Source of the DNA: Microlunatus phosphovorus NM-1
GTDB taxonomy: Bacteria > Actinomycetota > Actinomycetes > Propionibacteriales > Propionibacteriaceae
Direction of reading: 5' to 3'
Length of the DNA stretch: 64,000 nt
NCBI RefSeq assembly: GCF_000270245.1
Contig: NC_015635.1
Coordinates: forward strand, 372,001 to 436,000
Shown: positions 20,991-54,020 of the stretch, piece by piece
Layout: every line of letters starts with the position of its first letter
Numbering within the stretch: position 1 is the first letter of the stretch
Made by a program: the position numbers and the translations under genes
Notes under the pieces: model-generated
What the model was told of the DNA's origin: nothing
Databases searched by the model: none
Seen by the model: the letters and a program-made list of their open reading frames with translations, nothing else

Positions 20991-20992
20991 GG

Positions 20993-31891: not shown

Positions 31892-32019
31892 GCTGGCTCC
31901 TCGGGTGATGGACGTGGCGTACCTCAGAGTGCCGCCCGAAGAGGGCTAGAGATACGTCCCGTCGGACCTGACCCGGGGCAACAAGATCTGCCCGAAAGGG
32001 AAAGCGGCGGATCGATGGG

Positions 32020-33300: not shown

Positions 33301-33330
33301 CCGGCGGGACCGCGAGAAGCTGGCCAGGGG

Positions 33331-35382: not shown

Positions 35383-36146
35383 GTGGCCTTCTTGGGCGGC
35401 CGTTTGCGCGCCATCGCCACGCGCGGACCGGGGCGTCCACCGGTCTTGGCGGGTGTGCTGCCAGCAGACGTGCTGGCCGTTGATTGCGCGTCGGAGTCGC
35501 TCTTGGCGTCGCCTTCGGATGCCGTGGCGTCGGAGCGATCGGCCGGGGACGTCTTGGTCTCTGTCCCCGGCCAGCCGGCCACGCCGCCCATGGTGATCTC
35601 CATCGGCTTCTGGACAGGTGGCCCGACATGGGGCCGCTGACCGCTGTCCATCGGCGTGGTCACGACCAGGTCCAAGGATGGTTTCAGTTCCCCACCCAGC
35701 GCGGACCAGACGTCGGCAAAGGCACGGTCCTCCGGCGGCGGCAGCGCGATGGTGATCGGGATCGGCAGCCCGAGCTCGGTCAACGGTCCGGTCAACACAT
35801 CTCTCGGCAGCGCCTCGTACCGCACGAAGCAGGTCAGTAGGGATGACAGCAGCCGGTGCTCGTCCTCGGGTCGCTGCGTCCAGGCGGTGACCAGATAGGA
35901 GAGTTTGAAGTGGCGCGGCGGCAGATGCCTGGAGACGACGACGTTGTTCTCATACACCTGGTGCATGCCCCGCTCGCGGCGGCGCAGGTCCTCGCGGATG
36001 TCGTAGAGATAGACATCGATGGTGGGCGAGTTGCGACGTCCCGCCCACTCCCGGGTCGGGGCTTCGAACACGATCTCGACGTCCCGCATGCCGTCGGCTT
36101 CTCGCTCGATCAGGGTGCGCAACGCAGAGTCCACCTCGTGGATCAC
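35379..36146 (-). CDS. CIS terminator/cap protein, DUF4255 family (Afp16-type)
   Basis: A 255-residue protein. Residues ~1-190 are DUF4255: IHEVDSALRTLIERE at the start, RRNSPTIDVYLYDIRED in the middle, and YLVTAWTQRPEDEHRLL. Afp16 caps the end of the sheath and tube. The last ~70 residues are a Ser/Asp/Thr-rich linker ending in a basic RKRPPKKAT tail. GTG 36146 is chosen because the conserved domain begins immediately; longer frames to 36230 are not supported by a ribosome-binding site. First gene of the DUF4255-ATPase pair. Confidence 0.9.
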   Translation of the reverse strand: MIHEVDSALRTLIEREADGMRDVEIVFEAPTREWAGRRNSPTIDVYLYDIREDLRRRERGMHQVYENNVVVSRHLPPRHFKLSYLVTAWTQRPEDEHRLLSSLLTCFVRYEALPRDVLTGPLTELGLPIPITIALPPPEDRAFADVWSALGGELKPSLDLVVTTPMDSGQRPHVGPPVQKPMEITMGGVAGWPGTETKTSPADRSDATASEGDAKSDSDAQSTASTSAGSTPAKTGGRPGPRVAMARKRPPKKAT

Positions 36147-36265
36147 CCCAGCAGCATGCCCGGTCGTGGCCGGTCGATGGCAGGGCCGTTGATCCGATCT
36201 CTGGGCACAGATGTCTGCCTCATCGGGCACCCGAGTGCTGAGGCGGATCGTACGGGTTTAGATTT

Positions 36266-36412
36266 CGCCCATGGCCGGGTCAAATGGTCGCGCTCCGCGC
36301 TCCGCGGTCCTGAGCTCCGCGAAGTCTCGCTCGTTCGTCGCGATTCCGTGCGACGAAGAACGTGTCGCCCGGAATCGCTCCTGCACTCCCGAGAGGCTCC
36401 GCCCATGACCGG
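36266..36412 (+). repeat. Start-codon leader repeat with 35-bp direct repeats
   Basis: The element has the CGCTCCGCG stretch, CTCGCTCGTTCGTCGC, an inverted repeat GCGATTCCG (36340-36348) / CGGAATCGC (36370-36378), then CTGCACTCCCGAGAGG and the ATG of the next gene. A 35-bp sequence starting CGCCCATGGCCGGGTCAAAT at 36266 recurs at 36400 with one change, so the element is bounded by direct copies of its own end, including a second in-phase-looking ATG. Confidence 0.75.
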
Positions 36413-37280
36413 GTCAAATGGTCGCGCTCCGCGCGCTCTGCCACGCTGGCTGGGCCGACTGCTGGCCGTGCTCATGGTGGCAGCCTTCGTCGTGCTGCCG
36501 GCGCTGCCGGCCAGTGCCGAGGAGCCGCCGGGACTGGAATGGTCGATCAGCATCGACGGGCGCAACCTCGAGACCGTGACTCGTACCGATCCACTGCAGC
36601 TCGGCAGCTCCGATTCGGCGCGAGTGCAGCTTGACCTGACCAATGGGGGCGCGGAGGAGTTGAAGATCCGCAGTGTCCGGATTGAAGGTCAGGTGATCGG
36701 GATGACCTTCTTCAGCTACACGACCCGTCTCGACATCGTCGTACCCGCTGGTCAGCAGACTCAGCGCCGCTTCGACATTGACATCAGCGATCTCAGCCGC
36801 CAGGCGACCGGGCTGTTGCCGACCTCGGCTGTCTTGATCGGACCGGATCGCAAGACGGTCGCCGAGAAGAGCTTTCCGGTAGACGTCCGCGGCTCGGCGG
36901 TGTCGATCTACGGAGCCTTCGGCCTGGCCATGGCGGGGATCACGGCGGTCGTGCTGGCCGGTCTGCTGCTCGCCATCCGCCGCCGACAGCTGCCGACCAA
37001 CCGCTGGCAGCGAGGATTGCGATTCCTGCCCTCCGGGCTCGGGATCGGTGTGGTGCTGACCTTCACCCTGTCGGCGCTCCGGCTCCTGGTGCCGAATGCC
37101 TGGTGGTGGCTGCCGATCCTGCTGCTGTTCGGCGGCGGGGCCTTCCTGCTCGGCTACTTCCTGCCGCTTGGCTCAGGCGATGAGCAGCCCTCCGAGGATG
37201 ACTCGGACTCTCCTGATGGGGAGTCGGACGAGGAGAAGGCTGAGCTGTCGGAGCTGTTCGAACAGCAGCAAGGCAACTGA
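36405..37280 (+). CDS. Exported multi-pass membrane protein, CIS-associated
   Basis: A 291-residue protein. Residues 1-~37 are a signal peptide (VLMVAAFVVLPALPASAEE). Residues ~40-165 form an extracytoplasmic beta-sandwich (LEWSISIDGRNL and VQLDLTNGGAEELKI), similar to small Ig-like domains. Three membrane helices follow near 168-190, 207-228 and 231-250, then an acidic C-terminal tail. ATG 36405 is fixed by the GAGAGG site in the leader repeat. It has no recognised family. It is divergent from the DUF4255 gene and may anchor the surface module of the locus in the membrane. Confidence 0.75.
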   Translation: MTGSNGRAPRALPRWLGRLLAVLMVAAFVVLPALPASAEEPPGLEWSISIDGRNLETVTRTDPLQLGSSDSARVQLDLTNGGAEELKIRSVRIEGQVIGMTFFSYTTRLDIVVPAGQQTQRRFDIDISDLSRQATGLLPTSAVLIGPDRKTVAEKSFPVDVRGSAVSIYGAFGLAMAGITAVVLAGLLLAIRRRQLPTNRWQRGLRFLPSGLGIGVVLTFTLSALRLLVPNAWWWLPILLLFGGGAFLLGYFLPLGSGDEQPSEDDSDSPDGESDEEKAELSELFEQQQGN

Positions 37281-37343
37281 TCGGATCACGTCCTCGACTT
37301 CGCACCATTTCGGGTGGCCCGCACCATATTCGGGTGGTCGGTT

Positions 37344-37420
37344 CTCGACTTCGCACCAACTGATGCGACTGCGCACCGGGTACACGTGGTGCGCGGTGAC
37401 AGCAAATGGTGCGAAGTCGA
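37344..37420. repeat. Palindromic flanking element, left copy
   Basis: Perfect 14-bp outer arms TCGACTTCGCACCA (37345-37358) and TGGTGCGAAGTCGA (37407-37420), with inner arms GCGCACC/GGTGCGC. A related copy lies at 37975 on the other side of the array, and an extra half-site lies at 37293. Confidence 0.75.
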
Positions 37421-37499
37421 TGCGGGATCTAAGGCGGTCGGCGGTAAAGGCGGGTGCAGGCCAGTCCCTCTCGGCCTGTCCGCTCGGCGCCGGTCCTCG

Positions 37500-37556
37500 C
37501 GAGAAGGAGGTTTGGCACCTGTTTCGGCCGTGAACAGGTGCCTTGCCTCCTTCTCG
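37500..37556. repeat. Long hairpin in the composite repeat region
   Basis: Arms of 24 bp with three mismatches (37500-37523 and 37533-37556), both containing GAGAAGGAGG and GGCACCTGTT segments, around a 9-nt loop. It could end transcription from the membrane protein gene or form part of a non-coding RNA. Confidence 0.65.
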
Positions 37557-37604
37557 ATCAGCGATCCCACCCGACAGAGCCAGAAGTCACCGCTCCGGCG
37601 CTGA

Positions 37605-37940
37605 TCTGTGGCCCGGTGGCGCGAGACGTACGCCGCGCACGCGTAAATGGTGGTCGTTTGTGGCCCGGTGGTGCGAGACGTACGCCGCGTACGCCCGGTC
37701 AGCGATCGTCCGTGGCCCGGCGGCGCAAAACGTACGCCGTACCCGCCCGGCCAGCGGCCGTCCGTGGCCCGGTGGCGTGAGAGGTACGTCGTGTGCGCCC
37801 GGGTCAACGATCGTCCGTGGCCCGGCGGCGCGAAACGTGCGCCGTGCACGCGCAAGTGGTGGTCGTCGTTGGCCCGGCGGTGCGAAACGACTCAGCATTC
37901 CGAGAGCCGCGTACATCTCTGGCCCGGCGGCGCCAGCCGG
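37605..37940 (+). repeat. Seven-copy array with 52-bp period
   Basis: Copies of a core beginning TGGCCCGG start at 37609, 37661, 37713, 37765, 37818, 37870 and 37920. The conserved ~28-bp core (best read as GTGGCCCGGCGGCGCAAAAC and then a GTACGCCG end) alternates with ~24 bp that also resemble one another (CAGCGATCGTCCG type). It is a diverged tandem repeat, not a CRISPR array, because the in-between segments are related and no cas genes are present. Confidence 0.8.
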
Positions 37941-37974
37941 ACCGGCGACCGCAGGTCACACCACCCCAATCCCC

Positions 37975-38044
37975 ACTTCGCACCAACTGGGTCAACCTCG
38001 CACCTCGCGTACCTGGTGCGCAGTCGCAGGAAATGGTGCGCAGT
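37975..38044. repeat. Palindromic flanking element, right copy
   Basis: Outer arms ACTTCGCACCA (37975-37985) and TGGTGCGCAGT (38034-38044) with one mismatch, inner arms CGCACC/GGTGCG. The ACTTCGCACCAACTG start and the AAATGGTGCG end match the left copy at 37344. Confidence 0.7.
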
Positions 38045-38070
38045 GCGAGACGGCGGCGCCGGCGCACGGG

Positions 38071-40104
38071 TCAGCGGGTTGGGCTGGGGCGTTCTCGGGG
38101 TGGCCAGACGAAGGCCAGCAGGCCGACTGCCGCGCAGACCAGGACGATGATGCCGAGTGCGGTCGGGACCTGTGGCAGGCGATCGCCGATCACCCAGGTG
38201 GCCAGCACGCCGGCGATCCCGAGCGCGATCCCGGAGCCGATCAGGCCGATCACATCACCGGACTTGGCGCGGATCCGGCGGCGCCGGATCGGGCGCAGGA
38301 TCGACTCCATGTAGGCGATCGAGAACAGCGCGGTCAACGCGAGCGCGCCGAACGGAATGCTGAGCCACCGTCGGGGACTCCAGCGTTCGGCGGCAGAGAG
38401 GACGACTTCGCGGGGACCTGCGGCACTGGTGATCTCGGCTCGCGTGGGACCGGCCAGGAAGACACTCCGACTGTGCAGGTCGAAGGCCTTCGCCTTGATC
38501 GGCTCCGGCGGCCGCATCAGCGAGATTCCGAAGATGGTCGGCGTCAGTGCGGCATCCTTCGGGAGCCCAGCCGCGGATACCTTGAAGTCGTCGTTCCAGG
38601 TCATCCCCGACTTGTCCGCGGTCGCACCGAACAGCATCAGCAGGATCGCCCCGACGGCGCACACTGCCGAGATCAGCCGATAGACCGGTACGCCACCGCG
38701 GGAGCGTGCTGCCGGAGGTGCTGCACCGGAGGCCGCCGCAGGCGCCGGAGCTTCGGGTGGCGGCGGGGTCACCGCCGCGGGGGGCACCGGTGAGGGTGTC
38801 GGCGTGACGGGTGCCGCGACTGGCACGGCTGGCACAGATGATTCGGCACTAGTCGGAGCCGGAGCAGCGGTCGGTGCCGGAGCAGGAGTCGTCGGAGCAA
38901 CGGACGGCGTCACGGCAGCGGCCGGAGAGGGAACGGACGCGGCGGGGGCCGGCGCGGCGGTGGGCGTCGGTGCCATCGCCGCGGTCTGGATCACGGGCTC
39001 GCTCGGACGTGCCGGTGCCTCGGTCGAGGATCCAGCACTCCCGGCGTCGAGGCTCGCCCCCAGCAAGGCGGCCCCCATCGCGACACAGAGCTTGGGCTGT
39101 GGCGAGAGGACGGCCGGCCGCCCGAACCGCTGGGTGATCCGCTCGCTGATCAGGGGTACGCGAGACGAGCCGCCGACCAGCACAATGGCCGCGAGCTCGT
39201 CGGTAGCCACCCCCGATCGGCGGATCACCCGGTCGAGGACGTCCAAGGTGTCGCCGATCAACGGGCCGATGAGCTCGTTGAACTCGGCGCGGGTCAGCCG
39301 TACCCGGGTCGTCTGACCGCCCAGGGTGATGGGCACGATCGTCTCGGTCTCGCTGGAGAGCGCCTCCTTGGCCTCCGTACAGCTCCGTCGGAGCTGGGCC
39401 AGACCGAGCAGGGTCTCCGGGTCGTCCGGATCGAGCCCATCCGCCTCGATGCTGCGGCTGACCCGCTCGAACACGGCCTCGTCGAAGTCGACACCACCGA
39501 GCTGCTCCACGCCGTCGGGAGCGCCCAGCACCTCGAAGCTGCCACCCGGCCCACGTCGGAGGACGGCCGCATCGAAGGTCCCGCCGCCGAGGTCGTACAC
39601 CGCGATGGACTGCCCCTCCGCCACCCGGCGGGTCGACGCAAAGTGCAGCGCGGCCGCCTCGGGTTCGGTGCAGACGGTGATCGGATAGTCGGCGTTGAGC
39701 GCGGTGACCTGGCTCATCAGCTCCCGGCGATACGGTCCCCAGTTGGCGGGGCAAGTCACGATCACCCGGTCCGGCTCCTCGCCCTGGCCGTTCACGACCT
39801 GCTCGATCGTCCAGCTGAGCAGGGCCTTGGCGCAGGCGTGCGCCGACAGCGGGGTGCCGCCGACGAAGATCGGGGTCTGGTCGCCCATCCGCCGCTTGAA
39901 CTCGCGGGCGATCCGCTCCGGCTCGGTGGTTGCCCGGCGCTCCGCCGACTCACCGCAGCGGAAGGTGCCGTCGATCCCCTGATAGATCACCGACGGCGCC
40001 TGGGGGGACCGGTCTCCCAGGGTGATGACCTCGGCGTGCGAACCGTCGCTGACTGCGGCCGCCGTGTATGTCGTACCCAGGTCGATGCCTAGTGCGTACC
40101 CCAT
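38071..40104 (-). CDS. Membrane-anchored Hsp70 (DnaK-like) ATPase
   Basis: A 677-residue protein. Residues 1-~375 are an intact Hsp70/actin-fold ATPase: GIDLGTTYTAAAV (phosphate 1), VYDLGGGTFDAAVL (phosphate 2) and VLVGGSSRVPLI (adenosine). The usual substrate-binding domain is missing. Instead there is a ~110-residue Ala/Pro/Thr linker, then four membrane helices with an extracytoplasmic loop between the first (VYRLISAVCAVGAILLMLFG region, ~478-498) and the rest (~600-675). ATG 40104 has GGGGG seven bases upstream. It may power or gate membrane complexes; the domain swap is the oddest feature. Its neighbours are surface proteins and dynamin-like GTPases. Confidence 0.85.
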   Translation of the reverse strand: MGYALGIDLGTTYTAAAVSDGSHAEVITLGDRSPQAPSVIYQGIDGTFRCGESAERRATTEPERIAREFKRRMGDQTPIFVGGTPLSAHACAKALLSWTIEQVVNGQGEEPDRVIVTCPANWGPYRRELMSQVTALNADYPITVCTEPEAAALHFASTRRVAEGQSIAVYDLGGGTFDAAVLRRGPGGSFEVLGAPDGVEQLGGVDFDEAVFERVSRSIEADGLDPDDPETLLGLAQLRRSCTEAKEALSSETETIVPITLGGQTTRVRLTRAEFNELIGPLIGDTLDVLDRVIRRSGVATDELAAIVLVGGSSRVPLISERITQRFGRPAVLSPQPKLCVAMGAALLGASLDAGSAGSSTEAPARPSEPVIQTAAMAPTPTAAPAPAASVPSPAAAVTPSVAPTTPAPAPTAAPAPTSAESSVPAVPVAAPVTPTPSPVPPAAVTPPPPEAPAPAAASGAAPPAARSRGGVPVYRLISAVCAVGAILLMLFGATADKSGMTWNDDFKVSAAGLPKDAALTPTIFGISLMRPPEPIKAKAFDLHSRSVFLAGPTRAEITSAAGPREVVLSAAERWSPRRWLSIPFGALALTALFSIAYMESILRPIRRRRIRAKSGDVIGLIGSGIALGIAGVLATWVIGDRLPQVPTALGIIVLVCAAVGLLAFVWPPRERPSPTR

Positions 40105-40195
40105 TCGGACCCCCGTACCTGTGTGTTCGGCCGTGGCCACCGCGGCCGCGGGAGCGGACTGGGATGGTCACCGGATGTTAGCAACAGCTCAATGG

Positions 40196-43100
40196 TTAGT
40201 ACGGCCGTCGGGGGAGGAAGGAGATGACCCCCTTGGCGACCAGCACGAAGAACACCAGGATCGATCCGGTGGTCAGACCCGCGGTGGCCAGCGCTCCGCC
40301 GGCCCTGTCCACCTGAGGTGCGGTGATGTCGACGTTGGGGTCACCGATCGTCGTGCCGCAGCTGGAGTGGATGACATAGCGACCGAGCGGCAGATCGGGC
40401 ACCGCGGCACGGAGGTAGAAGCTTCCGTCGCCGGCAGCCCTGGTCTTGCCCAGTTCCCGATCGCCGAGGTTGACCGTCACCTGCTCGCCGCGCTTGCACC
40501 CGGTGCCGGACAGCTGGATATCGCCGCCTGGCCGCCCCACTTCTGGTCCGTCGACCATGGTGCTGGTGGCCGGCAGGTCATCAGTCGGCTCCTCGGTCGG
40601 TTCGGTGGTCGGCTCCTCGGTGGGTTCATCGGTCGGCTCGTCGGTTGGCTCTTCGGTCGGTTCCTCCGAGGGCTCATCGGTGACCGGCGGCTCGGTCGGC
40701 GGTTCGGTGATGGTGACCGGTGGCTCGGTGATCACGGTCGGCGGTGGGGTCACGGGTGGTGCTTCCCAGATGTGCTCAGCCGTGTCTCGCTGCGGTTGTA
40801 CGTCGACCTGTTCGGTTGCGGTGAGCTCGTCGGTGCCCGCCACGGAGCGCGTCCAGGTGAAGGTGGCCTCACCGGCCGCGTCGTCGGTCTTCTTGGTGAT
40901 CGTCCTGGTGGGCTGGCCAGACACCGAGTGATTGATCGTCAGTTCGATCTCCTGGCCGCCTACCGCGTCCCCGTCATGGGTGAGGCGGGCCGTCACACTG
41001 GCCTGATTGCCCGTGGTGCTGGTGGCGGTGCTCGGCGTGAGCACGAGCTTGGGTACGAACCAGCGGTGCGTGATCTCCGGGGATTCCACCACACCGCAGC
41101 CGTACGGGGTGGTCGCCGAGATGATGTTAGGCGCGGTTCCCCTGCCGGTGAAGGTCAGCTTGGCGACACCGTTCTTGTTGGTCTTGACGGTCCGGCTGGG
41201 AGTGGTGCCGAGGAAAGTCACCGGCGTGCCGGCCGCGGCGCGGACATTCGGGCGCTCGTACACCGTTGCGGTCATGGTGACGGAGGTGCCGGCACGGCTG
41301 AGACTCGAGGACTGAGTGAGCGCGATCGACAGGGGCGTCGGGGTCCATTTGTGCGTCGTCGTGTCCGACGCCGGCTTGAACACGCCGACCTCTTCGGCCT
41401 TGACGTTGTCGATGCCCGTGGCATTTCGGGTCAGCTCGACCTCGGCTCGTCCTTCGCCATTGGTGCGCGCTTCCTTGACGACCACGGGAAGCTCACACTT
41501 GGAGTCGGTCAGCGTGAACGTGAACCTGACCAGTTGATCGGAGAGCGGGATCGTATTCTCGGGGAGGTTGGCTGTTGTCACCTTCTTGTCCCCGGCGCGG
41601 ATGCCGCCGGACGGACCGCTACCCAGCTTGAGGCGTTCAGCACTGATCCGCTCGTTCAGATCGATCCCGCCGCCCTCGTTGGGGTACGTCCGGCCGACAT
41701 CAGCAGTGAAGGTGACGTCCTTTCGCGCCTGGGACTCTGCGGCCTTGGGCTCCAGGTCGAGCTGTGTCTCCCACCAGTAGTGGTAGTTCCACGCGTCCAC
41801 AGACTGTTGGTCGCACCCAAGCACGGCGCCGGCGTTGATCCCGACCCAGGTCTCGCTGGTGCGAGAGATCTCGATGCTGGCGTCGCCGTTGGCATTGGTG
41901 GACACCGTGGCCAGGAGGGTCTCGTCGCTCAGGAAGAAGTCGACATCCACATTGGGTAGTGGGTCCTCGCTGTCGTTGCTGAGATGGGCAGTGAACCGAA
42001 CCCGAGTGCCGACGCGGCTCTCGTAAGTGGGTGTTGACAAGGTCAGGTTGCCGCTGTCGTCCGGCAGACTCACCCAGCGGTGCGTGGTGGAGGCCGTCGC
42101 CAGCTCCACCTCGGGGCCGGATTGGGGTGGGACCTCGGTCACGTCGATCGTCTTGTTGTCCCCCGGCACGCCGGTGATCGTCACCGTCGTGGTGCCATCC
42201 TGGTCGGTGAACGGAGGGTTGAGGGGATCCGCCAGCCCGCTGACGCGGAACTCCAGGTCGACGTACGGCAGTGGCCAGCCCTCATCGGTGACGATCACCG
42301 TGACCGGATGCTCCTCGTTCCCGAGGGAGGCGCTGGCGGGCGTTAGGAAGGTGATCGTCGGCTGCCACCAGTGCACAGTCTTCGCGGCATACCGTCCGTC
42401 CGAACCCAACCGGGCTCCGATGACCTTCGCGCCTGGGCTCGATGGCGAGGCATACACGTACCGGTCGTTGTCGTCGGCGTCAGCCCAGCCGGTGCCTGTC
42501 CAGTACTCCAGGCCGGAGAGGACCGCGGAGTCGTCGGAATCGAACCCCACCGAGGCGCTGATCGGAGCGCCGCGCCGCTGGTCGAAGGCAACGACCCACA
42601 GGTCTGTGATGGCGGGATCGCCGCCGTCTCCGGACCACGTGTGGCTGGTCACTACGCTGGCCTCGAAATTGCCGGAGTTAGTGGCGGCGGCCTTGGTGGC
42701 GGTAACCGTGACCTGTTCGATTCCTGGCGCAGCGCCTTCCCATTCGACGCTGAACCTGCCGTCGGCGTCCGTCTCGGTGTCGATGGTCGACGTGGCGGCG
42801 TTCGAGGTCAGACTGTCGATCGTCACCCGGACAGTGGCGTCCGGCACCCTCGTGTTGCCGAGCCGCACGTCACCAGTCAACTCGAAGGGGTCGTCGCCTG
42901 GTGTGTCGCGTGCGTCCGGCACACCCTCGTCCAGAATGATCGCCGACGTCCACCATTCGTGCGTGACGAAGGCGGTCATTCCCTCGGCGGTGCAACCCGG
43001 ACTGACCACGGTGGCAGTGATCGTGTCGCTTGCCTCCACCGGGCTGGCGGTCCGGTAGGTCGCCACGCCATTGACGGCCCTGATTGGTCCGCTGGACCAC

Positions 43101-43462
43101 CCACCACTGCGGGTGCCCGAGAAGGTGATGAACCAGCCGTCCGGAAGCTCTGGCAACGGGGCGTTGTCCGGTGCCTTGAGCGTTGCGGTCAGCGTGACCT
43201 CGGTGCCGATCACACTATCGGCGGAACTCTGCTCCAGTGTGAGTGTGACGTCCAAGGGTGAGGCAGCGGCCGCCGGGAGCGGGCTCAGCGGCGGCAGGCC
43301 GAGGGCGATCCCGGCGAGGATGAGCGCCAACAGGGCGCCGAGCACCCGGCGTACCGCTCGCCGACCTGAACCCACTCGTCGGCCCGAACCCAACCGTCGA
43401 CCTGAGCCCGGGCATGGCGCAGAACGTCTGCGCCCTGTCCCGGGCCCGACGCTGGTCGCCAC
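40196..43462 (-). CDS. Giant Ig-like-repeat surface protein
   Basis: A 1088-residue surface protein. Residues ~38-66 form a signal peptide after a basic leader. About eight bacterial Ig-like domains follow, each ending with a T-H-x-W type motif (THEWWTS, SHTWSGD, VHWWQPT, THRWVSL, THKWTPT, THRWFVP, EHIWEAPP). A TEEPTDEP-type stalk spans ~925-965, one more beta domain (GTGCKRGEQVTVNLG) follows, and a C-terminal membrane helix near 1058-1080 ends in basic residues. GTG 43462 has no clear ribosome-binding site. It probably projects through the cell wall as an adhesin or sensor stalk. It is far larger than any neighbour. Confidence 0.82.
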   Translation of the reverse strand: MATSVGPGTGRRRSAPCPGSGRRLGSGRRVGSGRRAVRRVLGALLALILAGIALGLPPLSPLPAAAASPLDVTLTLEQSSADSVIGTEVTLTATLKAPDNAPLPELPDGWFITFSGTRSGGWSSGPIRAVNGVATYRTASPVEASDTITATVVSPGCTAEGMTAFVTHEWWTSAIILDEGVPDARDTPGDDPFELTGDVRLGNTRVPDATVRVTIDSLTSNAATSTIDTETDADGRFSVEWEGAAPGIEQVTVTATKAAATNSGNFEASVVTSHTWSGDGGDPAITDLWVVAFDQRRGAPISASVGFDSDDSAVLSGLEYWTGTGWADADDNDRYVYASPSSPGAKVIGARLGSDGRYAAKTVHWWQPTITFLTPASASLGNEEHPVTVIVTDEGWPLPYVDLEFRVSGLADPLNPPFTDQDGTTTVTITGVPGDNKTIDVTEVPPQSGPEVELATASTTHRWVSLPDDSGNLTLSTPTYESRVGTRVRFTAHLSNDSEDPLPNVDVDFFLSDETLLATVSTNANGDASIEISRTSETWVGINAGAVLGCDQQSVDAWNYHYWWETQLDLEPKAAESQARKDVTFTADVGRTYPNEGGGIDLNERISAERLKLGSGPSGGIRAGDKKVTTANLPENTIPLSDQLVRFTFTLTDSKCELPVVVKEARTNGEGRAEVELTRNATGIDNVKAEEVGVFKPASDTTTHKWTPTPLSIALTQSSSLSRAGTSVTMTATVYERPNVRAAAGTPVTFLGTTPSRTVKTNKNGVAKLTFTGRGTAPNIISATTPYGCGVVESPEITHRWFVPKLVLTPSTATSTTGNQASVTARLTHDGDAVGGQEIELTINHSVSGQPTRTITKKTDDAAGEATFTWTRSVAGTDELTATEQVDVQPQRDTAEHIWEAPPVTPPPTVITEPPVTITEPPTEPPVTDEPSEEPTEEPTDEPTDEPTEEPTTEPTEEPTDDLPATSTMVDGPEVGRPGGDIQLSGTGCKRGEQVTVNLGDRELGKTRAAGDGSFYLRAAVPDLPLGRYVIHSSCGTTIGDPNVDITAPQVDRAGGALATAGLTTGSILVFFVLVAKGVISFLPRRPY

Positions 43463-43595
43463 GGATAGAACTTAGATGACAGGAATCTATCTGTCGACGG
43501 CGGAATTGATCCCGGCCCTCGAGAACTGGTCGGCGATTGCCCGATCGGGCAGCAGACCCTGCCGTAACTCAATTCATTCGCCCTATGCTGACCGC

Positions 43596-45143
43596 GTGAC
43601 CGACCCCATCGTCTCGATCGATCTCGACCATGTGGCGGTCGAGCCCGGCGGTCAGGCTTCGGTGACTGTGACGGTCAGGAATCCCGGCACGATTGTCGAG
43701 GGCTATCAGATCGAGGTCGTGGGCGAGGGAGTCTCCCAGTGGGCTGATGTGCTGCCTCCCGAGGTCTCGGTCTATCCGCAGCAGGAAGCCACCGCGGTGA
43801 TTGTGTTCAGCCCACCCGGCGGGACAGGGGCGCCCGGCGGCACCTGGCCGTTCGGGATCCGCGTGCGGTCGACCGAGGACGCCGATGCCAGCGCGGTGGC
43901 GGAGGGCGACCTGGAGATCGGCAAGGTCTTCGGCCTGCAGGCCAAGCTGCTGCCGGTGAATTCCTCCGGCCGGTGGAACGGGCGCCACGTCATTCAGATC
44001 ACCAACTGGGGCAATTCGCCGGTGACCTTGAAGCTCTCCGCCACTGATGCCGACCAGGCGCTCGGTTTCATGATCCGACCGGACGTGGTCGAGTTGCCCC
44101 TCGGCGGCACGGCGACCGCTCGGCTCTGGGCGAAGACGAAGTCGCCGACGTTGCGTGGCACTGCGACCCGGATCCCGTTCACGGTCGCCGGCGAGCGCCA
44201 GGGTGCGCCGCCTCCGCAGGCCCCGCCGACACCGTACGGAGGGAGTCTCGATCGGCCGACCGTCGATGGCGCGTTCAACCAGAAGCCGATCCTCACCAAG
44301 ACCTCCGTGATGGTCGCTGTGCTCGCTTTGCTGGGCATCGGTGGTGGGGTGGCCTGGCTGCTGACCCACCCGCTGGTCGAGGAGTCGACGTTCGCCGAAC
44401 TCGGTCCGCCTCCCGCGCCCGCGGCGGTCAAGGTCGACGCGCTGGGGCCGGAATCATTGCGGGTCGGTTGGGCTGCGGTGCCTGACGTCACGGCCTACAC
44501 CGTGGTCGAGGTGCTTGCCGACGGCAGCCGCACTGGGTCGAAGGACGTCACGGCGACTGACAATGCCCTGACATTCGAGGGGTTGAAGCCGGCTACTGAG
44601 GTCTGCTACGCCGTGCAGGCAAAAAGGGACAAATTGCTGGGGCCGTTCTCCGAGAAGGAATGCGGGACGACGGCCGCGTTGGCTGCCAGCCCGTCACCGA
44701 CGGATGGCGGCTCCGGGTCGCCCTCGGAGTCAGCGTCGACCGGGGATCCTGGCTCTCCGTCGGAGAGTGGCGAGCCGTCGCAGGAACCGACCTCCGCCAC
44801 CAGCACAGGTCCCGGCAACGTGCCGGTCAATCCCAGCAAGGTCCCGACCGGTGCCGCGACGACGGCGAATCCCGACTTCAAAGGCAAGTGGTTTGCCGCA
44901 GACTTCTGGGATCCCAACGTGTCCATCTTCGACCCGGCGGACCGGCTCGCCAAGTTGCAGGCTGTCGACAAGCGGGCCGGGATTGTGTCGAGTGATCTCT
45001 ATCCGCAGATAACGCTCAACCTCCAGGCCACCAATTGGGTGCTCTTCATCGGCCCGTTTGACACCAGAGCCGAGGCCGAAGCCGCATGTCCCACCGTCAA
45101 GAAGGTCCAGCCGGGCTGCCTTTCGATCCAGCTTGATCCCTGA
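43596..45143 (+). CDS. Membrane protein with Ig-like, FnIII and SPOR-like domains
   Basis: A 515-residue protein. Residues ~1-210 form two Ig-like modules (VAVEPGGQASVTVTVRNPG; RHVIQITNWGNSPVTLKLS, core ITNWGNSPVTL). A membrane helix spans ~237-258. Residues ~275-350 are fibronectin type III-like, ~355-420 a Ser/Pro/Gly linker, and ~425-510 a SPOR-like domain (WVLFIGPFDTRAEAEAACP) that would bind denuded peptidoglycan. The N-terminal part should be cytoplasmic because no signal peptide precedes it. GTG 43596 lies six bases behind TATGCT, suggesting a leaderless message. It is divergent from the giant Ig protein gene. Confidence 0.8.
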   Translation: MTDPIVSIDLDHVAVEPGGQASVTVTVRNPGTIVEGYQIEVVGEGVSQWADVLPPEVSVYPQQEATAVIVFSPPGGTGAPGGTWPFGIRVRSTEDADASAVAEGDLEIGKVFGLQAKLLPVNSSGRWNGRHVIQITNWGNSPVTLKLSATDADQALGFMIRPDVVELPLGGTATARLWAKTKSPTLRGTATRIPFTVAGERQGAPPPQAPPTPYGGSLDRPTVDGAFNQKPILTKTSVMVAVLALLGIGGGVAWLLTHPLVEESTFAELGPPPAPAAVKVDALGPESLRVGWAAVPDVTAYTVVEVLADGSRTGSKDVTATDNALTFEGLKPATEVCYAVQAKRDKLLGPFSEKECGTTAALAASPSPTDGGSGSPSESASTGDPGSPSESGEPSQEPTSATSTGPGNVPVNPSKVPTGAATTANPDFKGKWFAADFWDPNVSIFDPADRLAKLQAVDKRAGIVSSDLYPQITLNLQATNWVLFIGPFDTRAEAEAACPTVKKVQPGCLSIQLDP

Positions 45144-45209
45144 GCCGTGTTGTCGCTCGCCGTTCGCGCTCGCGACCGGCCGAGCAGATCCGGGGTGACG
45201 ACAACAGGG

Positions 45210-46352
45210 TCAGTTGACCGGGGGCCTTGACTCCAGGGTGATCTCGGTGAAGGCCAGCAGATCCTGGCCACCCTCGGGTGGCTCCGGGGGGTACGCAGTC
45301 TGCACCGAGATTCGGATCGACTCCACCTGACTCTTGGTGTCCAGCTTGATGGTCTGCTTTTCCACGTTCTCGAGTTCGATGTCCTTGCACTGATCCGAGT
45401 ACGCGACCCAGATCTTCTTCGGGCGGTACTGCAGGAGCCGGTTGGGGTCCTTCTCGCGCAGGCCCGCCCAGATCTCGATCTGTTTGATCCGAGCGGGCGC
45501 GAACGACAGGTTGATCACCGGCGTCGTGGGTGGCACCTGGCACGGGCTCCCCTGGGTCGTCGGGGTCCACGTCATCTTCCAGGACTTGGCGGTGCGGTCC
45601 AACAGGGCATCCGGTGTGGAATCGGCCGCCGACGCATCGGGCGGGATGATCTCCGCCTGAACATTGGGCACGGTGACGATGGCTCTGCGGAGGTCGTAGT
45701 ACCGCGCGACGAAGAACGCCTTGGGGGAGCGGCCGATGGCGTAGAGACCACCGCCGATCAACGTCAGCGCCAGGATCGAGATGATCACGCGACGCCAGCG
45801 GTAGAGCGGCGGCAGGCTGCGCCGGTACGCCCGGCGTGCCACTCGGTCCTTGCTGTCCCACAGCCGAGACCACCAGGTATCGCGCCTCTGCGTCGGCCGG
45901 GTCACCGGTGCGTCGCCGCCGGGCTTGATGAACTGCTCCCCACAGTGCGCACAGAAGCGGCGTTTCGGATCGATCGGGCGGCCGCAGCGCGGGCAGCCGT
46001 GGGCAGCGCTGGCCATGCTGACCACGGGCACGTCCGGTGTGAGGTCCACCGGCGTCGGCTGATGCGCCGGCTGAGTCGACTGGGTCGGGGCCGGTGTGGG
46101 CGGGGGCGCTGGTCGGGCTGCCGGGGCGGCTGCCGCGACGGGTGCCGGCGTGCTCGCCGACGGCGGTGCGGCAGGGGGTACCGCCGGTGCGGACGTCCTG
46201 GTCACCGGTGGCAGCTGCTGGGTGACCTCGTTGGCCTCCTCGGCGTCCGAATCTTGCCACTCCAGGTATGCCCCGCAGAAGAGGCAGAACTGCGCGCCGG
46301 CCTTGTTCGACTCGCCACAGTCCTCGCAGATCACGTACCGAGTGTCCAGCAC
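45210..46352 (-). CDS. Double zinc-ribbon membrane protein with C-terminal discoidin-like domain
   Basis: A 380-residue protein. The first zinc ribbon is at ~6-28 (CEDCGESN...FCLFCGAYL), an Ala/Pro linker follows, the second ribbon is at ~110-133 (CPRCGRPIDPKRRFCAHCGE), and a membrane helix lies near 178-198 (VIISILALTLIGGGLYAIG). The extracytoplasmic C-terminus (~215-380) is a beta-sandwich with INLSFAPARIKQIEIWAG and IRISVQTAYPP, resembling discoidin/NADase-type glycan-binding domains. GTG 46352 has GGAG upstream; other starts are possible. It is divergent from the dynamin gene that also begins with a zinc ribbon. Confidence 0.8.
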   Translation of the reverse strand: MLDTRYVICEDCGESNKAGAQFCLFCGAYLEWQDSDAEEANEVTQQLPPVTRTSAPAVPPAAPPSASTPAPVAAAAPAARPAPPPTPAPTQSTQPAHQPTPVDLTPDVPVVSMASAAHGCPRCGRPIDPKRRFCAHCGEQFIKPGGDAPVTRPTQRRDTWWSRLWDSKDRVARRAYRRSLPPLYRWRRVIISILALTLIGGGLYAIGRSPKAFFVARYYDLRRAIVTVPNVQAEIIPPDASAADSTPDALLDRTAKSWKMTWTPTTQGSPCQVPPTTPVINLSFAPARIKQIEIWAGLREKDPNRLLQYRPKKIWVAYSDQCKDIELENVEKQTIKLDTKSQVESIRISVQTAYPPEPPEGGQDLLAFTEITLESRPPVN

Positions 46353-46682
46353 CCCGGTGGGCTCCGTCGAGAGGGATCGCTCTCCGGCCAAGGAATTTGG
46401 CACCAACGGGCAATCCGACGCAACCGTGCGGCCGGTCGGTAGGGAAAGAGAGAGGTCGCGGCGTACGTGTTGCGCCGCCGGGCCACGGACGAGCGCTGGC
46501 CGTGCGGGGAATGCGTACGTGTTGCGCCCGCGGGCCACGGACGCTCGTGAGAGCAGCCGGTCCGGAAGTCCGGTCCGCGGGCAGATCAGGGTTGGTACTC
46601 CGACGCGGTAGCCTGCCAGCACAAGATCGCCGGCCGAACGAGTTGTTTGGCCGACCAGACGTTCGACCATCAGGATGGGGAC
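46353..46682. other. Divergent intergenic region with inverted 52-bp units
   Basis: About 330 bases between the zinc-ribbon gene and the dynamin-like gene. It contains two units of the 52-bp-period repeat on the minus strand and should hold both promoters. No gene is seen. Confidence 0.6.
46461..46540 (-). repeat. Two inverted copies of the 52-bp-period repeat
   Basis: The core at 46461-46488 and at 46513-46540 is exactly 52 bp apart. On the minus strand the first core differs from the third copy of the 37605 array at one base in 28. The segment between them also resembles those of that array. Confidence 0.8.
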
Positions 46683-48995
46683 GTGATCACCTGCGCCAAC
46701 TGCGGCACTGAGAACGAGCCCGACTCGGTGTTCTGCAGCGCATGCAATCACTTCCTGCAGTGGGAGGAGCCGGTCAGCGAATCGCGCCCTCGCCGTCGGC
46801 GGACCTCGTCGGATCTGGTCGCCGCACTCAATCCGGTGCCGACACCCGAACCGGAGCCCGAGCCCGAGCCGACACCCGAGCCCGAGCCAGTTCCACCGGA
46901 ACCAGAGCCACCGGCGCCGGAGCCGGTTCCACCGGAACCAGAGCCCGAGCCGGCCCCGCCACTTCCTGAACCCGAGCCGGAACCCCAGCCGGCACCCCAT
47001 CCCCAGCCGGCGCCCGAGCCGACTCCACCGGTACCCGCGCCCGAGCCGGCGCCGCCGCGGATCCCGGCACCAACGCCGCGCTTGGCAGCCAAGCCGGCGC
47101 CCATCGCGCCGACTCCCGAGCAAACGACCAAGCCCGCGAAACCACGAGCCGGCAATCCGAACTCGAGTGTGCAGGAGATCATCGCGGCGATCGACACAGG
47201 TCGGGAGATCGCGGCCAGCCAGGGCCGTAGCGACCTCGATCAGCACCTGGACGAGACCAAGAAGCGGCTCGCTGCCGAGCAGATCCAGGTGGTCTTCTGC
47301 GGCCAGTTCAAGGTCGGCAAGTCGACCATGATCAACGCCTTGCTGCAGCGCGCGGTCTGCCCGGTCGACGCCGATGTGGTCACCGCCGTGCCGACCGTCG
47401 TCAGGTACGCGGACAAGCCCAAGGTCACCACCTATGTCCGATCCGAGGACGGCAGCCGGATCGAGGAGCGCGAGCGCCCGGTCGGCGAGATCGACCTGCT
47501 GGTCACCGAAGAGGCGGATCCGTCGGACCCGGAGCGGGAGCGAGTGGTCGAGGTCGGGCTGCCGCACCGCATGCTGCGCAGCGGGCTGGCGGTGGTGGAC
47601 ACCCCTGGTGTCGGCGGGCTGGACTCGGCGCATGGCTTCCTCACCCTCGGCGCACTCCGCCATGCCAAAGGGGTCGTGTTCGTCACCGATGCTGCTCAAG
47701 AGCTCACCGGTCCGGAGCTGTCGTTCCTCAAGACGGCGGTCGAACGCTGCCCGACCACGGCCGTGGTGGTGACCAAGACCGACCTCTATCCGCACTGGCG
47801 CCGGATCATGGAACTCGACCGCCAGCACCTCGAGAAGGCCGGCCTTGATCTGCCGCTGTTCGCGGTGTCATCGTTTCTGCGGCTACGGGCGGCCCGTGAC
47901 CCCGAGCTCAACGCGGAGTCCGGTTTCGGTGAGCTGGTCACCTTCCTGGCCCGCGACGTGGTGGCCAAGACCCGTGAGCAAGCCGCGAAGACCGCGGCCG
48001 CCGAGGTCGACTTCGTTGCCAGCCAGCTGGAGCAGCAATCGCAAGCCGAGCGGGCCGTCATCGCCTCGCCGCAGTCCAGCGAACAGGTCGTGCAGGAACT
48101 GGATCGGGTCCAGGAGCAGGCCAAACGCTTGATCCACCCGACCGCGACCTGGCAGCAGACATTGTCCGACGGCATCCAGGACCTGGTGGCCGACGTGGAG
48201 CACGATCTGCAGGCTCGGCTGCGTACCGTCATCCACGACGTCGAAGAGGTGATCGACTCCGGTGACCCGAAGGACACCTGGTCCGACACCGAGGTGTGGC
48301 TGCGCCGCCAGATCGCGATCGTCACCGTGGCCAACAGGGATCTGCTGACCGAACGCGTTGAGCAGCTTGCGCAGGACGTCGCCTTCCATTTCGAGCTGCC
48401 GGAGGGCGCCAAACTGGTCCTTCCGCTGGCCGGCCATGCCCATGTCGATTCGGTCACTCTCGCCCCGGCGTCCTCGTTGGCGATGCCGGGCGGCAAGCTG
48501 GCGCCGCTGATGGTGGCCGCTCGTAGCAGCTTCTATCTGCCGATGATGCTCGGCACCCTCGCCGCGAACCTGATGGGCGGCGGCCTGGTGATCCACCTGG
48601 CGATGGCTGGCGTGTCGCTCGTCCTCGGCGGCGGTATCGGCAAGAAGATCATCGGCGACGAGCAGAAGCGGCAGCGCACCTATCGGCAGCAGCAGGCCAA
48701 GGCGGCGGCGCGGCGGTTCATCGATGAGGTGGCGTTCACGCTGAACAAGGAGACACGCGACGTCCTACGCACCGCGCAGCGGCACCTCCGAGACGACTTT
48801 CAGGGTCGCGCGGCCCAGCTCGAGCGGTCGGCGTACGAGGCGATAGAGGCCGCGCGCCGGCTCCGCGGTCTGGACGAGACCCAGCTGGCGGCCCGGGAAC
48901 GGGAGCTGACCGATCGCGAGGGCCGACTGGGCTCGGTCCGGGCCGCGGCACGCGATGTCGCCGGCGCACGGGAGCCGGTGGGCAGCCGTGGCTGA
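46683..48995 (+). CDS. Dynamin-like GTPase with zinc ribbon
   Basis: A 770-residue protein. Residues ~4-22 are a zinc ribbon (CANCGTEN...FCSACN) nearly like that of the divergent neighbour. Residues ~55-150 are Pro/Glu repeats (PEPEPEP). The GTPase domain has G1 GQFKVGKST (~206-214), a G2 Thr in the following loop, G3 DTPGVGG (~306) and G4 TKTD (~364). A helical stalk follows, with a hydrophobic paddle at ~608-655 (SFYLPMMLGTLAANLMGGG) and a coiled-coil C-terminus. It resembles bacterial dynamin-like proteins that bend or fuse membranes. GTG 46683 has an AGGATGGGG stretch upstream. Its end overlaps the next GTPase gene, forming a typical pair. Confidence 0.87.
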   Translation: MITCANCGTENEPDSVFCSACNHFLQWEEPVSESRPRRRRTSSDLVAALNPVPTPEPEPEPEPTPEPEPVPPEPEPPAPEPVPPEPEPEPAPPLPEPEPEPQPAPHPQPAPEPTPPVPAPEPAPPRIPAPTPRLAAKPAPIAPTPEQTTKPAKPRAGNPNSSVQEIIAAIDTGREIAASQGRSDLDQHLDETKKRLAAEQIQVVFCGQFKVGKSTMINALLQRAVCPVDADVVTAVPTVVRYADKPKVTTYVRSEDGSRIEERERPVGEIDLLVTEEADPSDPERERVVEVGLPHRMLRSGLAVVDTPGVGGLDSAHGFLTLGALRHAKGVVFVTDAAQELTGPELSFLKTAVERCPTTAVVVTKTDLYPHWRRIMELDRQHLEKAGLDLPLFAVSSFLRLRAARDPELNAESGFGELVTFLARDVVAKTREQAAKTAAAEVDFVASQLEQQSQAERAVIASPQSSEQVVQELDRVQEQAKRLIHPTATWQQTLSDGIQDLVADVEHDLQARLRTVIHDVEEVIDSGDPKDTWSDTEVWLRRQIAIVTVANRDLLTERVEQLAQDVAFHFELPEGAKLVLPLAGHAHVDSVTLAPASSLAMPGGKLAPLMVAARSSFYLPMMLGTLAANLMGGGLVIHLAMAGVSLVLGGGIGKKIIGDEQKRQRTYRQQQAKAAARRFIDEVAFTLNKETRDVLRTAQRHLRDDFQGRAAQLERSAYEAIEAARRLRGLDETQLAARERELTDREGRLGSVRAAARDVAGAREPVGSRG

Positions 48996-50469
48996 TGCAC
49001 TGGTGGACAGCCTCGCCGAGCTGCTCGATCGGGCGGTGTCGAGTGCCCGCACCGCCGATGCCCGAGCCCGGCTGACCGACGCCCGTGAACGGCTCGAAGG
49101 GCCGCTCCGGCTGGCCATCGCAGGCAAGGTGAAGGCGGGCAAATCAACCTTGTTCAACGCCATCCTCGGCGAGGAGCTGGCGCCGACCGATGCGGGCGAG
49201 TGCACGAAGATCGTCACCTGGTATCGCGAAGGGAACTCGCCGCAGGTGACGGTCTATCCGTTGAGCGGCGGCGCCGTGCCACGTCCCTGGTCGCGTGACT
49301 CCGGAGCGCTGGACGTCGATCTGGGCCAGTTGCCGGCCAGCGCTGTGGACCGGATCGAGGTCAGCTGGCCGACCAGCAAGCTCCGTACGCTGACCATCTT
49401 GGACACCCCCGGGATCGCTTCGATCTCGGCCGACATCTCAGCTCGTACGCAGCGGGTGCTGGCCGCGGAAGACGGGCGGCCGCCGGTCGCCGACGCGGTG
49501 CTCTATCTGATGCGGCACACGCATGCCAGCGACGTCCGGTTCCTGGAGTCGTTCCACGACGACGAGCTGGCTCATGGCACGCCGATGAACTCGGTCGGTG
49601 TGTTGTCCCGAGCCGACGAGATCGGGTCGTGCCGGCTGGATGCCATGGAGGTCGCGGATCGGATCGCCCGCCGCTACGAGGCCGATCCTCGGCTGCGCCG
49701 GCTGTGTCCGGTGATCGTGCCGGTGAACGGTCTGCTGGCCTTTGCCGCGACCACGTTGCGTGAGATCGAGTACGCGATGCTGGCCACCCTGGCCCGAGGG
49801 GATCGCGGCGAGGTGGAGCAGTTGTTGCTGACCGCGGACCGCTTCCTGCACCGCTCCACCGGTGTGCCGCTCACCGAGATCGAGCGTGAGCACCTGATGG
49901 ACCGGATGGGTCTGTACGGGATCCGGTTGTCGGTGGAGCTGATTCGGGCGGGCTTCGTCACCTCGGCCATCGAGCTCTCGTCCGAACTGGTCGACCGCAG
50001 TGGCCTGACCCGGCTCCGCGCGGTGCTGACCAGGCAGTTCGAGCAGCGTAGCCGCATCCTCAAGGCTCGCTCGTCGCTCGCGGTGCTGACCGACGTGCTG
50101 CGCAACGGCGGTTGTACGGACGGGGATGCCTTGCTGGCCACGGTCGAGCATCTGTCGGCGAGCACCCACGAGTTCGAGGAGGTCCGGTTGCTCAGCGCAC
50201 TACGGAGCGGCCAGATCGAGGTCCGACCCGAGCGAGCAGTCGAGCTCGATCGGCTACTGGGCGGCAGCGGTCACGCTCCCGCCATCCGCCTTGGGCTGGC
50301 CGAGAGCGCCACGGCGCCGGAGATCCGAGGTGCAGCGCTGTCGTCGCTGGCCAGCTGGCAGCGACTGGCCGAGCACCCGCTGTCCGGACGTCAGGTCAAG
50401 ATGGCGGCAAGGGCCGCGGTTCGTACCCTGGAAGGCATGGTTGCCGCACACAGTTCGACCGCTGAATAG
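48988..50469 (+). CDS. Second dynamin-like GTPase
   Basis: A 493-residue GTPase. G1 GKVKAGKST (~48-56) and G3 DTPGIA (~139) are clear; LSRADEIG (~207) replaces the usual N/TKxD G4 motif and is atypical. The rest is helical, with no obvious hydrophobic paddle. Bacterial dynamins often come as such pairs, one membrane-active and one partner; here the larger upstream protein has the membrane paddle. GTG 48988 overlaps the upstream stop by eight bases, so the two are coupled. It is the last gene before the hydrolase block. Confidence 0.87.
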   Translation: MADALVDSLAELLDRAVSSARTADARARLTDARERLEGPLRLAIAGKVKAGKSTLFNAILGEELAPTDAGECTKIVTWYREGNSPQVTVYPLSGGAVPRPWSRDSGALDVDLGQLPASAVDRIEVSWPTSKLRTLTILDTPGIASISADISARTQRVLAAEDGRPPVADAVLYLMRHTHASDVRFLESFHDDELAHGTPMNSVGVLSRADEIGSCRLDAMEVADRIARRYEADPRLRRLCPVIVPVNGLLAFAATTLREIEYAMLATLARGDRGEVEQLLLTADRFLHRSTGVPLTEIEREHLMDRMGLYGIRLSVELIRAGFVTSAIELSSELVDRSGLTRLRAVLTRQFEQRSRILKARSSLAVLTDVLRNGGCTDGDALLATVEHLSASTHEFEEVRLLSALRSGQIEVRPERAVELDRLLGGSGHAPAIRLGLAESATAPEIRGAALSSLASWQRLAEHPLSGRQVKMAARAAVRTLEGMVAAHSSTAE

Positions 50470-50613: not shown

Positions 50614-50743
50614 ATGCCCGTATTGACGGTTCGCGAGATCTACGACAGCGCGCGCGAGAGGTCTCGGCGTGCGCGCGGCAGTGCCCCGGTCCGTGCTCGC
50701 ACTGATCGCGTCCATCGGATCAGAAGGTCAGGCCGATGACTGA
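50614..50743 (+). pseudogene. Frameshifted N-terminal remnant upstream of the M15-like gene
   Basis: An ATG at 50614 has a strong GGAGGG site five bases upstream and starts MPVLTVREIYDSARE, matching the start of the hydrolase at 14945 (STTLSIREIYNAAL). One extra base near 50659 moves the continuing similarity (GLGVRAAVPRSVLALIASIG, like AGFTPHQAVTWTAIAMAESG) into the next frame. The original frame stops at 50737-50739, overlapping the ATG of the next gene as ATGA. It is a broken hydrolase N-terminus or a leader peptide now used for translational coupling. Confidence 0.55.
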
Positions 50744-53399: not shown

Positions 53400-54020
53400 C
53401 TAGATCAGACCCTCGCGGACCGCGTACGCGACCGCGTGGGTGCGGTTCTTCAGTTGCAGTCGACTCGTCAGATCGTGCAGGACGTTCTTCACCGTGCGTT
53501 CGCTGTAGCACATCCGAGAGGCGATCTCGCTGGTGTCGAGGCCGTCGGCGACCAGGCGTAGCACCTCGGTCTCCCGCGGCGTCAGACCCGTGAACGTGAG
53601 CCCGCGTGGCGCCAGCACCTGGCGCTGGAGACGGCCCACCTGCTCCAGCAGACGACCGAGCAGATCTGGCGGGATCTCACCATCGCCGGAGGCGACCTTG
53701 ATGATGGTCCGCACCATCGTGTCGGCACTGGCGTCGCTGCGCCGCAGCAGTCCCGCGACGCCGGCCTCTGCCGCGGCGACGAGAGCGTTGTCGTCGATGG
53801 TGGTCGCCACCAGCATCAGCCGGGGGTGACCGTCCTTGTGCATCGCCCGCAGCTCTCGGGTAGCGATCTCGTCGACACAATCGGTGATCAGGATCGCTAC
53901 CGCGGACTGGGGCGCGCTGCCGACGATCGTGATCTCCGGCCGTTGCCGCAGTTGAGCGACGACGCCGGCCTGAGAGATCGGATCACGAGCATGTACATAG
54001 GTAGCGACGGCGGTGGACAT
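53400..54020 (-). CDS. LuxR/NarL-family response regulator with degenerate receiver
   Basis: A 206-residue regulator. Residues ~1-125 have the receiver fold, but the phospho-acceptor loop is altered (ILITDCVDE) and the conserved acidic pair is not clear, so it may work without phosphorylation. Residues ~140-206 are a typical LuxR helix-turn-helix (LTPRETEVLRLVADGLDTSEIASRM, core LTPRETEVLRLVADG; then SERTVKNVLHDLTSRLQL). ATG 54020 follows AAGGGGG. It lies 233 bases downstream of the kinase gene on the same strand and closes the CIS locus, so control of CIS genes is a fair inference. Confidence 0.87.
   Translation of the reverse strand: MSTAVATYVHARDPISQAGVVAQLRQRPEITIVGSAPQSAVAILITDCVDEIATRELRAMHKDGHPRLMLVATTIDDNALVAAAEAGVAGLLRRSDASADTMVRTIIKVASGDGEIPPDLLGRLLEQVGRLQRQVLAPRGLTFTGLTPRETEVLRLVADGLDTSEIASRMCYSERTVKNVLHDLTSRLQLKNRTHAVAYAVREGLI

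Follow-up and report, generated by a model that had tools for sequence, protein, structure and literature searches.

We analysed a stretch of 64,000 nucleotides (hereafter, the window) of the Microlunatus phosphovorus NM-1 genome, which comprises 5,683,123 bases in a single contig (NC_015635.1, positions 372,001 to 436,000; G000:C1:372001-436000 in our sample). The window carries the genes of a contractile injection system (CIS) and, next to them, a segment in which genes for an Hsp70-type ATPase and two dynamin-like GTPases lie among genes for membrane and surface proteins. A sequence-only reading had described the seven genes of this segment (36405-50469) as a dedicated envelope module acting together with the CIS. 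All seven genes were found in that segment, and their features are listed in Table 1. Judged from its genes, the neighbouring CIS is genuine and nearest to that of Streptomyces coelicolor (CISSc): the sheath protein finds its best match in S. coelicolor structure 8bky (E=4e-207), and the wedge protein Cis11 in 9gtp (E=1.4e-205). It would be a Streptomyces-type intracellular CIS (class IId-like, a label taken from papers). The window locus has in common with CISSc the close sheath and Cis11 homologues and an adaptor with a Cys-rich ribbon before its transmembrane segment (TM), and differs by an added unit of ini genes.

Table 1. Features of the window; positions are counted from its first nucleotide.
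Feature	Position	Strand	Evidence and remarks
IniA-type dynamin with N-terminal zinc ribbon and proline-rich linker	46647..48995	+	Dynamin_N 1.6e-23
CisA-type zinc ribbon on IniA	46680..46769	+	C-x2-CG...FC-x2-C-x3-L-x-W, with L-x-W tail
IniC-type dynamin	48955..50469	+	Dynamin_N 1e-9; overlaps the IniA gene by 41 nt
Hsp70 nucleotide-binding domain, Pro/Ala linker and four hydrophobic stretches	38071..40140	-	PF00012 E=3.5e-49
Predicted CisA (Sco4242)-type membrane adaptor	about 45210..46352	-	ribbon 1, linker, ribbon 2, one TM, C-terminal domain
Zinc ribbon 1 of the CisA-type protein	46251..46340	-	C-x2-CG...FC-x2-C-x3-L-x-W
Predicted Sco4256-family bitopic protein	43602..45143	+	open reading frame (ORF) from 43476, likely start 43602
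CIS structural genes: Tail_P2_I, baseplate J (Cis11), gp25, spike, LysM-region protein, tubes, sheath, AAA, Pvc16_N	18444..36230	-	
eCIS_core (PF13699) protein	32231..33292	-	span is that of the ORF; the true start may be later
Exported multi-pass membrane protein	36405..37280	+	span is that of the ORF; N-terminal hydrophobic stretch and three more
Large Big_1 Ig-repeat protein	40196..43462	-	Big_1 in four stretches; hydrophobic stretches near both ends
TSP3, lysozyme-like (SLT_3) and NlpC/P60 hydrolase	14882..17704	+	relatives recur beside CIS loci, in other families too
TSP3-repeat protein	50736..53216	+	
LuxR/NarL-like regulator	53400..54020	-	

The two dynamin-like genes form a coupled pair, as had been read from the sequence. 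The larger protein matches Mycobacterium smegmatis IniA (6j72) over residues 178-774 (E=6e-92), which we counted as full-length similarity, and the smaller shares 44% identity with the gene next to IniA in Nocardia farcinica. IniA is reported to perform membrane fission, in which IniC may assist (PMC6715688). The window unit and mycobacterial iniBAC have the overlapping IniC partner in common, and Hsp70-type genes lie near relatives of the pair, for example in N. farcinica. In contrast to iniBAC, no IniB-like glycine-rich gene was found directly upstream of iniA in the window, where a divergent CisA-type gene is located instead; its IniA has an additional N-terminal zinc ribbon, and a CIS adjoins. 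Dynamin-family genes are also carried by plasmids of Rhodococcus, Prescottella and Gordonia (32 of 36 matched records), and a search of viral contigs with the IniA query returned no IniA relative.

The Hsp70-type protein is tied to the membrane by four hydrophobic stretches following the ATPase domain, in agreement with the earlier description. Pfam HSP70 spans residues 17-365, and the PDB matches at E<=1e-30 lie within residues 13-373; neither search revealed a substrate-binding domain. Thus, the protein has the nucleotide-binding domain of DnaK/Hsp70 chaperones and differs from them by its membrane stretches and by the lack of a detectable substrate-binding domain. Similar ATPase-domain proteins, a good number of them with a membrane stretch, accompany ini dynamins in the absence of a CIS. 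For these two reasons we rejected a chaperone of CIS assembly as the default reading of the gene. An Hsp70-type gene (at least 90 bits) was found in the stretch read at 30 of 33 ini loci without an adjoining CIS (31 from the sampled genomes, one from N. farcinica and one from Nonomuraea), where a fetched locus is called unlinked if the 8-20 kb read contain no CIS gene. At 20 of these 30 loci, a simple scan detected at least one Hsp70-type gene with a hydrophobic stretch after the ATPase domain. Hsp70, IniA and IniC thus constitute a widespread unit of their own. The family profiles were built from CIS-linked loci, and the scores of unlinked loci are therefore biased low.

An alignment with 16 proteins of CIS loci, together with TM positions, places a Cys-rich putative zinc domain before the single TM and the C-terminal domain of the protein encoded divergently from iniA. 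The label 'discoidin' given to this protein found no confirmation: it has no Pfam match, the PDB search yielded weak and unrelated-looking matches (best E=0.027), and its structure model is too poor for use (mean predicted local distance difference test score, pLDDT, of 52). The CIS loci of f22, f39 and f40 encode proteins with the same order of ribbon 1, linker, ribbon 2, TM and C-terminal domain at their baseplate end, on the tailI side (one gene away in G199). Sco4242, or CisA, is described as having a Cys-rich putative zinc domain just before one TM, followed by a C-terminal domain of ~150 residues (PMC10020575). On the strength of its architecture and of the corresponding genes in the f22, f39 and f40 loci, we assign the window protein to the CisA (Sco4242) type, with one difference in location: the S. 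coelicolor gene lies directly downstream of the baseplate genes, whereas the window gene lies beside iniA. CisA is reported to be a bitopic membrane protein that is required for contraction; binding of its cytosolic part to Cis11 is a prediction, and the authors could not confirm a direct contact (PMC12237407).

The protein with a fibronectin type III domain (FnIII) and a SPOR-like tail similarly appears to belong to a known group of CIS proteins. Its layout comprises two predicted Ig-like domains, one TM, FnIII and the tail, with Pfam fn3 just under its cut-off and SPOR at 21.2 bits against a cut-off of 21. The structure model (mean pLDDT 64) displays Ig-like sheets in the N-terminal domain, of which chiefly the first half is predicted with confidence. 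A helix follows at the TM, succeeded by an FnIII domain and a SPOR-like end of low confidence with the order strand-helix-strand-helix-strand. Relatives in the loci read consist of the domain, a TM and a variable tail, and orphan relatives with four TM exist; in G129 (f22), two copies of 473 and 468 amino acids adjoin the sheath gene, one of them with a ricin-type lectin tail. The same layout is found in Sco4256-4258, which are reported CIS cargo (PMC10066040, PMC10020575); loading into the tube lumen and toxicity upon expression are described for these S. coelicolor proteins (PMC10066040). N-terminal domain, single TM, variable tail and CIS location are all present in the window protein, which by these features is a predicted member of the Sco4256-4258 cargo family with an FnIII/SPOR-like tail in place of a ricin-type lectin. 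The zinc-ribbon and FnIII/SPOR proteins, taken by the sequence-only reading for parts of a new surface system, are thus known CIS parts.

The presence of this cargo family was counted in a class sample of 246 genomes, which also served for the sheath and IniC counts. The profile (A3) consists of eight rows, and five of the 33 genomes in which it was then found had contributed rows to it. At E<=1e-16, a cut-off chosen after the gap in scores had been seen, its N-terminal domain occurs in 33 of the 246 genomes, 32 of which have a sheath match; the remaining one, G255, has no sheath match and carries other CIS genes on the same contig. Five sheath-positive genomes are without the domain (G075, G109, G117, G213 and G259). 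All five have weaker sheath matches than the 32, although that of G213, a partial one, reaches 63% identity. Of the 33 genomes with the domain, 19 have relatives of the LuxR/NarL-like regulator (at least 100 bits) within their CIS stretches. Elsewhere in the M. phosphovorus genome, far from the CIS, an orphan protein combines a CIS-type zinc ribbon with cargo-type Ig domains and four membrane stretches (L098:6065-8065, G000:C1:5341065-5343065), and proteins joining the ribbon to the cargo domain also occur in G005, G007, G111 and G134.

The main feature linking the dynamins to the CIS is the zinc ribbon. The ribbons of the two divergent neighbours, IniA and the CisA-type protein, are real, and their type is CIS-associated. 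An N-terminal ribbon is present on IniA in the window, G007, G013 and G096, and also in G292, G313, G348 and G360, the latter four having been assigned by identity, outside the tree described below. In total, the IniA ribbon was found in all eight of these genomes (G096 and seven genomes of the window's own order with close IniC) and in none of 49 unlinked loci (33 + 16). A profile of 17 ribbons, run over 28 whole genomes, recovered 26 matches of at least 44 bits: 15 CisA-type proteins, six IniA and five cargo-domain proteins. One of the 15 CisA-type matches, in G264, has no CIS gene in the 20 kb read. The next-best match, of 38.7 bits, ends at model position 24, before the L-x-W tail. No strong match was found in G001, G002, G003, G006, G009, G011, G012, G016 and G019, which have no sheath or IniC match, nor in the ini-only genomes G023, G032 and G165. 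In the CIS-linked f21 genomes G074, G159 and G250, which belong to another family, IniA is ribbonless and the ribbon profile likewise gave weak matches only, including one of 23-27 bits located some 5-15 kb beyond the CIS genes read, possibly divergent CisA genes. Since the 17-ribbon profile contains the very classes it found, we repeated the search in 20,127 ORFs of the fetched stretches with seven CisA ribbons from IniC-negative genomes. This CisA-only profile recovered the eight IniA ribbons at 22-37 bits, with full tails.

The positions of the genes provide a second line of evidence. In the class sample, the sheath was counted as present at E<=1e-60, a cut that leaves distant sheaths outside. 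Seven genomes have both sheath and IniC, and in six of them (G000, G074, G096, G159, G198 and G250) the two genes are 11-29 kb apart; in G117 the distance is 1.57 Mb. Under random placement, the chance of proximity within 30 kb is ~1% per genome, which for single genomes of three lineages amounts to ~1e-6. The linkage recurs in the lineages f1/f2 (one order), f31 and f21, which carry it between them; independent events are fewer than genomes, and p-values overstate independence because the genomes are related. Among 24 IniA relatives in named genomes, ten have CIS genes in the fetched flank or, in the case of L156, on the same contig 29 kb away.

Within the window's own order (391 genomes), IniC was found in 30 genomes, of which seven are CIS-linked and 17 have no CIS structural gene in the stretch read; the 17, G095 among them, are the loci read among 23 genomes with a less close IniC. 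All seven genomes with IniC of at least 63% identity are CIS-linked, against none of the 17 more distant ini loci. The seven have the gene order Pvc16-cargo-CisA-IniA-IniC-LuxR, into which Hsp70, Ig and membrane-protein genes are inserted in the window and in G013. The expectation of a conserved gene order beside the CIS was therefore borne out, in seven of seven close loci of the order and, as linkage, in other lineages too. The Hsp70 gene is near in the window, G013, G348 and G360; at the other end of the CIS, such genes are located at G007:C1:4597088 (the only one seen at that locus) and G013:C1:6571545 (a second copy). An earlier generalization that IniC and CIS go together across the whole order, derived from three IniC genomes among 21, all with a close sheath, was dropped after the 391-genome sample.

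We tentatively read the locus as what may well be the membrane-side accessory region of a Streptomyces-type CIS with a built-in ini unit, in which the ribbon would serve as a docking tag for the dynamins. It is quite possible, more specifically, that the dynamin pair is CIS-dedicated, IniA having taken over a CisA-type ribbon and thereby bringing membrane remodelling to the site where CIS and membrane meet. The ribbon would then be a general address label, borne by the adaptor, the dynamin and membrane-anchored cargo-domain proteins at the CIS locus or away from it. The association of the ribbon with CIS is observed directly; docking is what we infer from it.

Several observations weigh against the docking-tag reading, among them the mostly CIS-free occurrence of ini units and the uncorrelated presence of sheath and IniC, for which counts are given below. 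The IniA ribbon is absent from four CIS-linked f21 loci, and from 21 loci of Micromonosporaceae, seven of them CIS-linked; there is thus a second CIS-linked group without it, and the tag is not general. In nine of the 28 genomes, ribbon scoring covered only 150 of the first-look candidates. With the CisA-only profile, a generic ribbon of G072 without the tail scored 27.9 bits, above three of the eight IniA ribbons (22-26 bits), from which the L-x-W tail alone separates it; the tag claim accordingly rests on the tail and the genomic distribution, and not on score alone. Thirty residues are also too few to decide between homology and convergence of the ribbons. The Hsp70 gene is not fixed in the group, the G007 copy being 28 kb from IniC at the far end of the CIS, and G292 and G313 have none within the 20 kb read. 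Finally, G005, whose locus has the cobN-like flank of the window group, keeps the genes for Hsp70, CIS, cargo, CisA-type protein and LuxR, with no IniC in the genome (E<=1e-10) and no IniA in the 40 kb read, which makes the dynamins dispensable.

An alternative is hitch-hiking: a few ancestors would have acquired, next to the CIS, an ini unit of general use in envelope stress, which was then inherited in that place and acts on the envelope independently of the CIS. Consistent with such an origin, sheath and IniC are uncorrelated across the class sample (37 and 35 of 246 genomes, seven with both; Fisher p=0.44), and 28 of the 35 IniC genomes have no sheath match, so that most ini units are CIS-free; the retention of a CIS without IniC in G005 points the same way. 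A tree of 41 loci places the CIS-linked dynamins in two well-supported clades, the f21 clade having the unlinked G037 as sister, and few linkage events therefore need explaining; a single clade of CIS-linked dynamins is not rejected by the approximately unbiased (AU) test (p-AU 0.087 with G037, 0.096 without it). In G037 (L119), which has no sheath match, the IniA-IniC pair neighbours a LuxR gene of the CIS type; this may be a relic of a lost CIS or reflect an assembly gap. What hitch-hiking accommodates poorly is the confinement of the CIS-type IniA ribbon to the CIS-linked group, the recurrence of the linkage in three lineages, and the fact that all seven close IniC copies found in the order remain at the CIS. 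We regard it as rather unlikely.

These counts also decide how much of the proposed envelope module stands. The conserved gene order and linkage, and the CIS-type ribbon that the dynamin shares with its neighbour, are supported; a single CIS-dedicated whole does not hold up, for it was to be abandoned if the module proved as frequent without CIS genes, and both the sheath-free IniC genomes and the 30 unlinked loci with an Hsp70-type gene speak against it. We likewise rejected the version in which six families are all CIS-dedicated, since ini units are mostly CIS-free. Nor are the Ig stalk and the exported membrane protein general members: among the loci compared, the Ig protein has a partial match in G013 only, and homologues of the exported protein were seen in G013, G096 and G348 among the loci read. 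Both are poorly conserved. Rather than a six-part CIS module, the locus would be a CIS locus that absorbed an ini dynamin unit, its dynamin marked with the ribbon type of the CIS adaptor.

Two proteins with TSP3 repeats flank the locus on either side (Table 1). Two of the intergenic gaps in the segment are filled by a 52-nt tandem repeat, with seven copies at 37590-37942 and two on the other strand at 46460-46543, near iniA; shuffled sequences yielded no match. A 35-nt duplicate (97% identical) occupies 36266-36300 and 36400-36434, and its second copy extends over the start of the gene for the exported membrane protein. Far away in the same genome, another tail-like cluster, which has two sheath-like genes, lies at G000:C1:2446332-2458781 (L039), and the module is absent from the 20 kb read there.

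If the ribbon is a docking tag, the ribbon of IniA would bind the same partner as ribbon 1 of CisA, either CisA itself or part of the baseplate, for example Cis11. This shared partner would hold the dynamin pair where CIS particles meet the cytoplasmic membrane, and the dynamins would remodel the membrane, by fission or resealing, as particles dock or fire. The SPOR-like tail may anchor the cargo-type protein at the wall, and the Hsp70 domain, lacking a detectable substrate-binding domain, may act as an ATP-switched partner of the dynamins and not as a general chaperone. The dynamin could aid docking, open the membrane or seal it again once a particle has fired. Another route would be exit from the cell, in which the dynamins pinch off or breach the membrane to let out particles or vesicles loaded with CIS and have no part in repair or docking. 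The reported fission activity of IniA would suit this route, and the wall could be opened by the TSP3 hydrolase, relatives of which lie beside several CIS loci. Such particles of Streptomyces, however, are reported to be cytoplasmic and unreleased under the conditions used (PMC10066040), and we consider such an exit improbable.

The Hsp70-dynamin unit could also respond to phage or to membrane damage, with the CIS as its means of cell death. Dynamins can guard membranes, which is a point for this explanation. Streptomyces CIS are further reported to drive stress-induced cell death (PMC10066040). The ini unit, however, is known for cell-wall drug stress (PMC5760070), and a defence role appears very improbable.

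In the open-licence literature, we found no paper that links CIS with dynamins (two mention both, one of them in its reference list only), none combining 'zinc ribbon' with 'contractile injection', and none combining CIS, dynamin and Hsp70. For cytoplasmic CIS of Gram-positive bacteria to engage the membrane of their own cell, CisA is needed, yet its contact with the particle is reported as unconfirmed (PMC12237407). A ribbon common to CisA and a fission dynamin is a testable candidate for the docking interface, and would add a membrane-remodelling enzyme to CIS action. The locus also provides an evolutionary setting for mycobacterial IniA and IniC, namely a widespread Hsp70-dynamin unit that may become attached to another machine.

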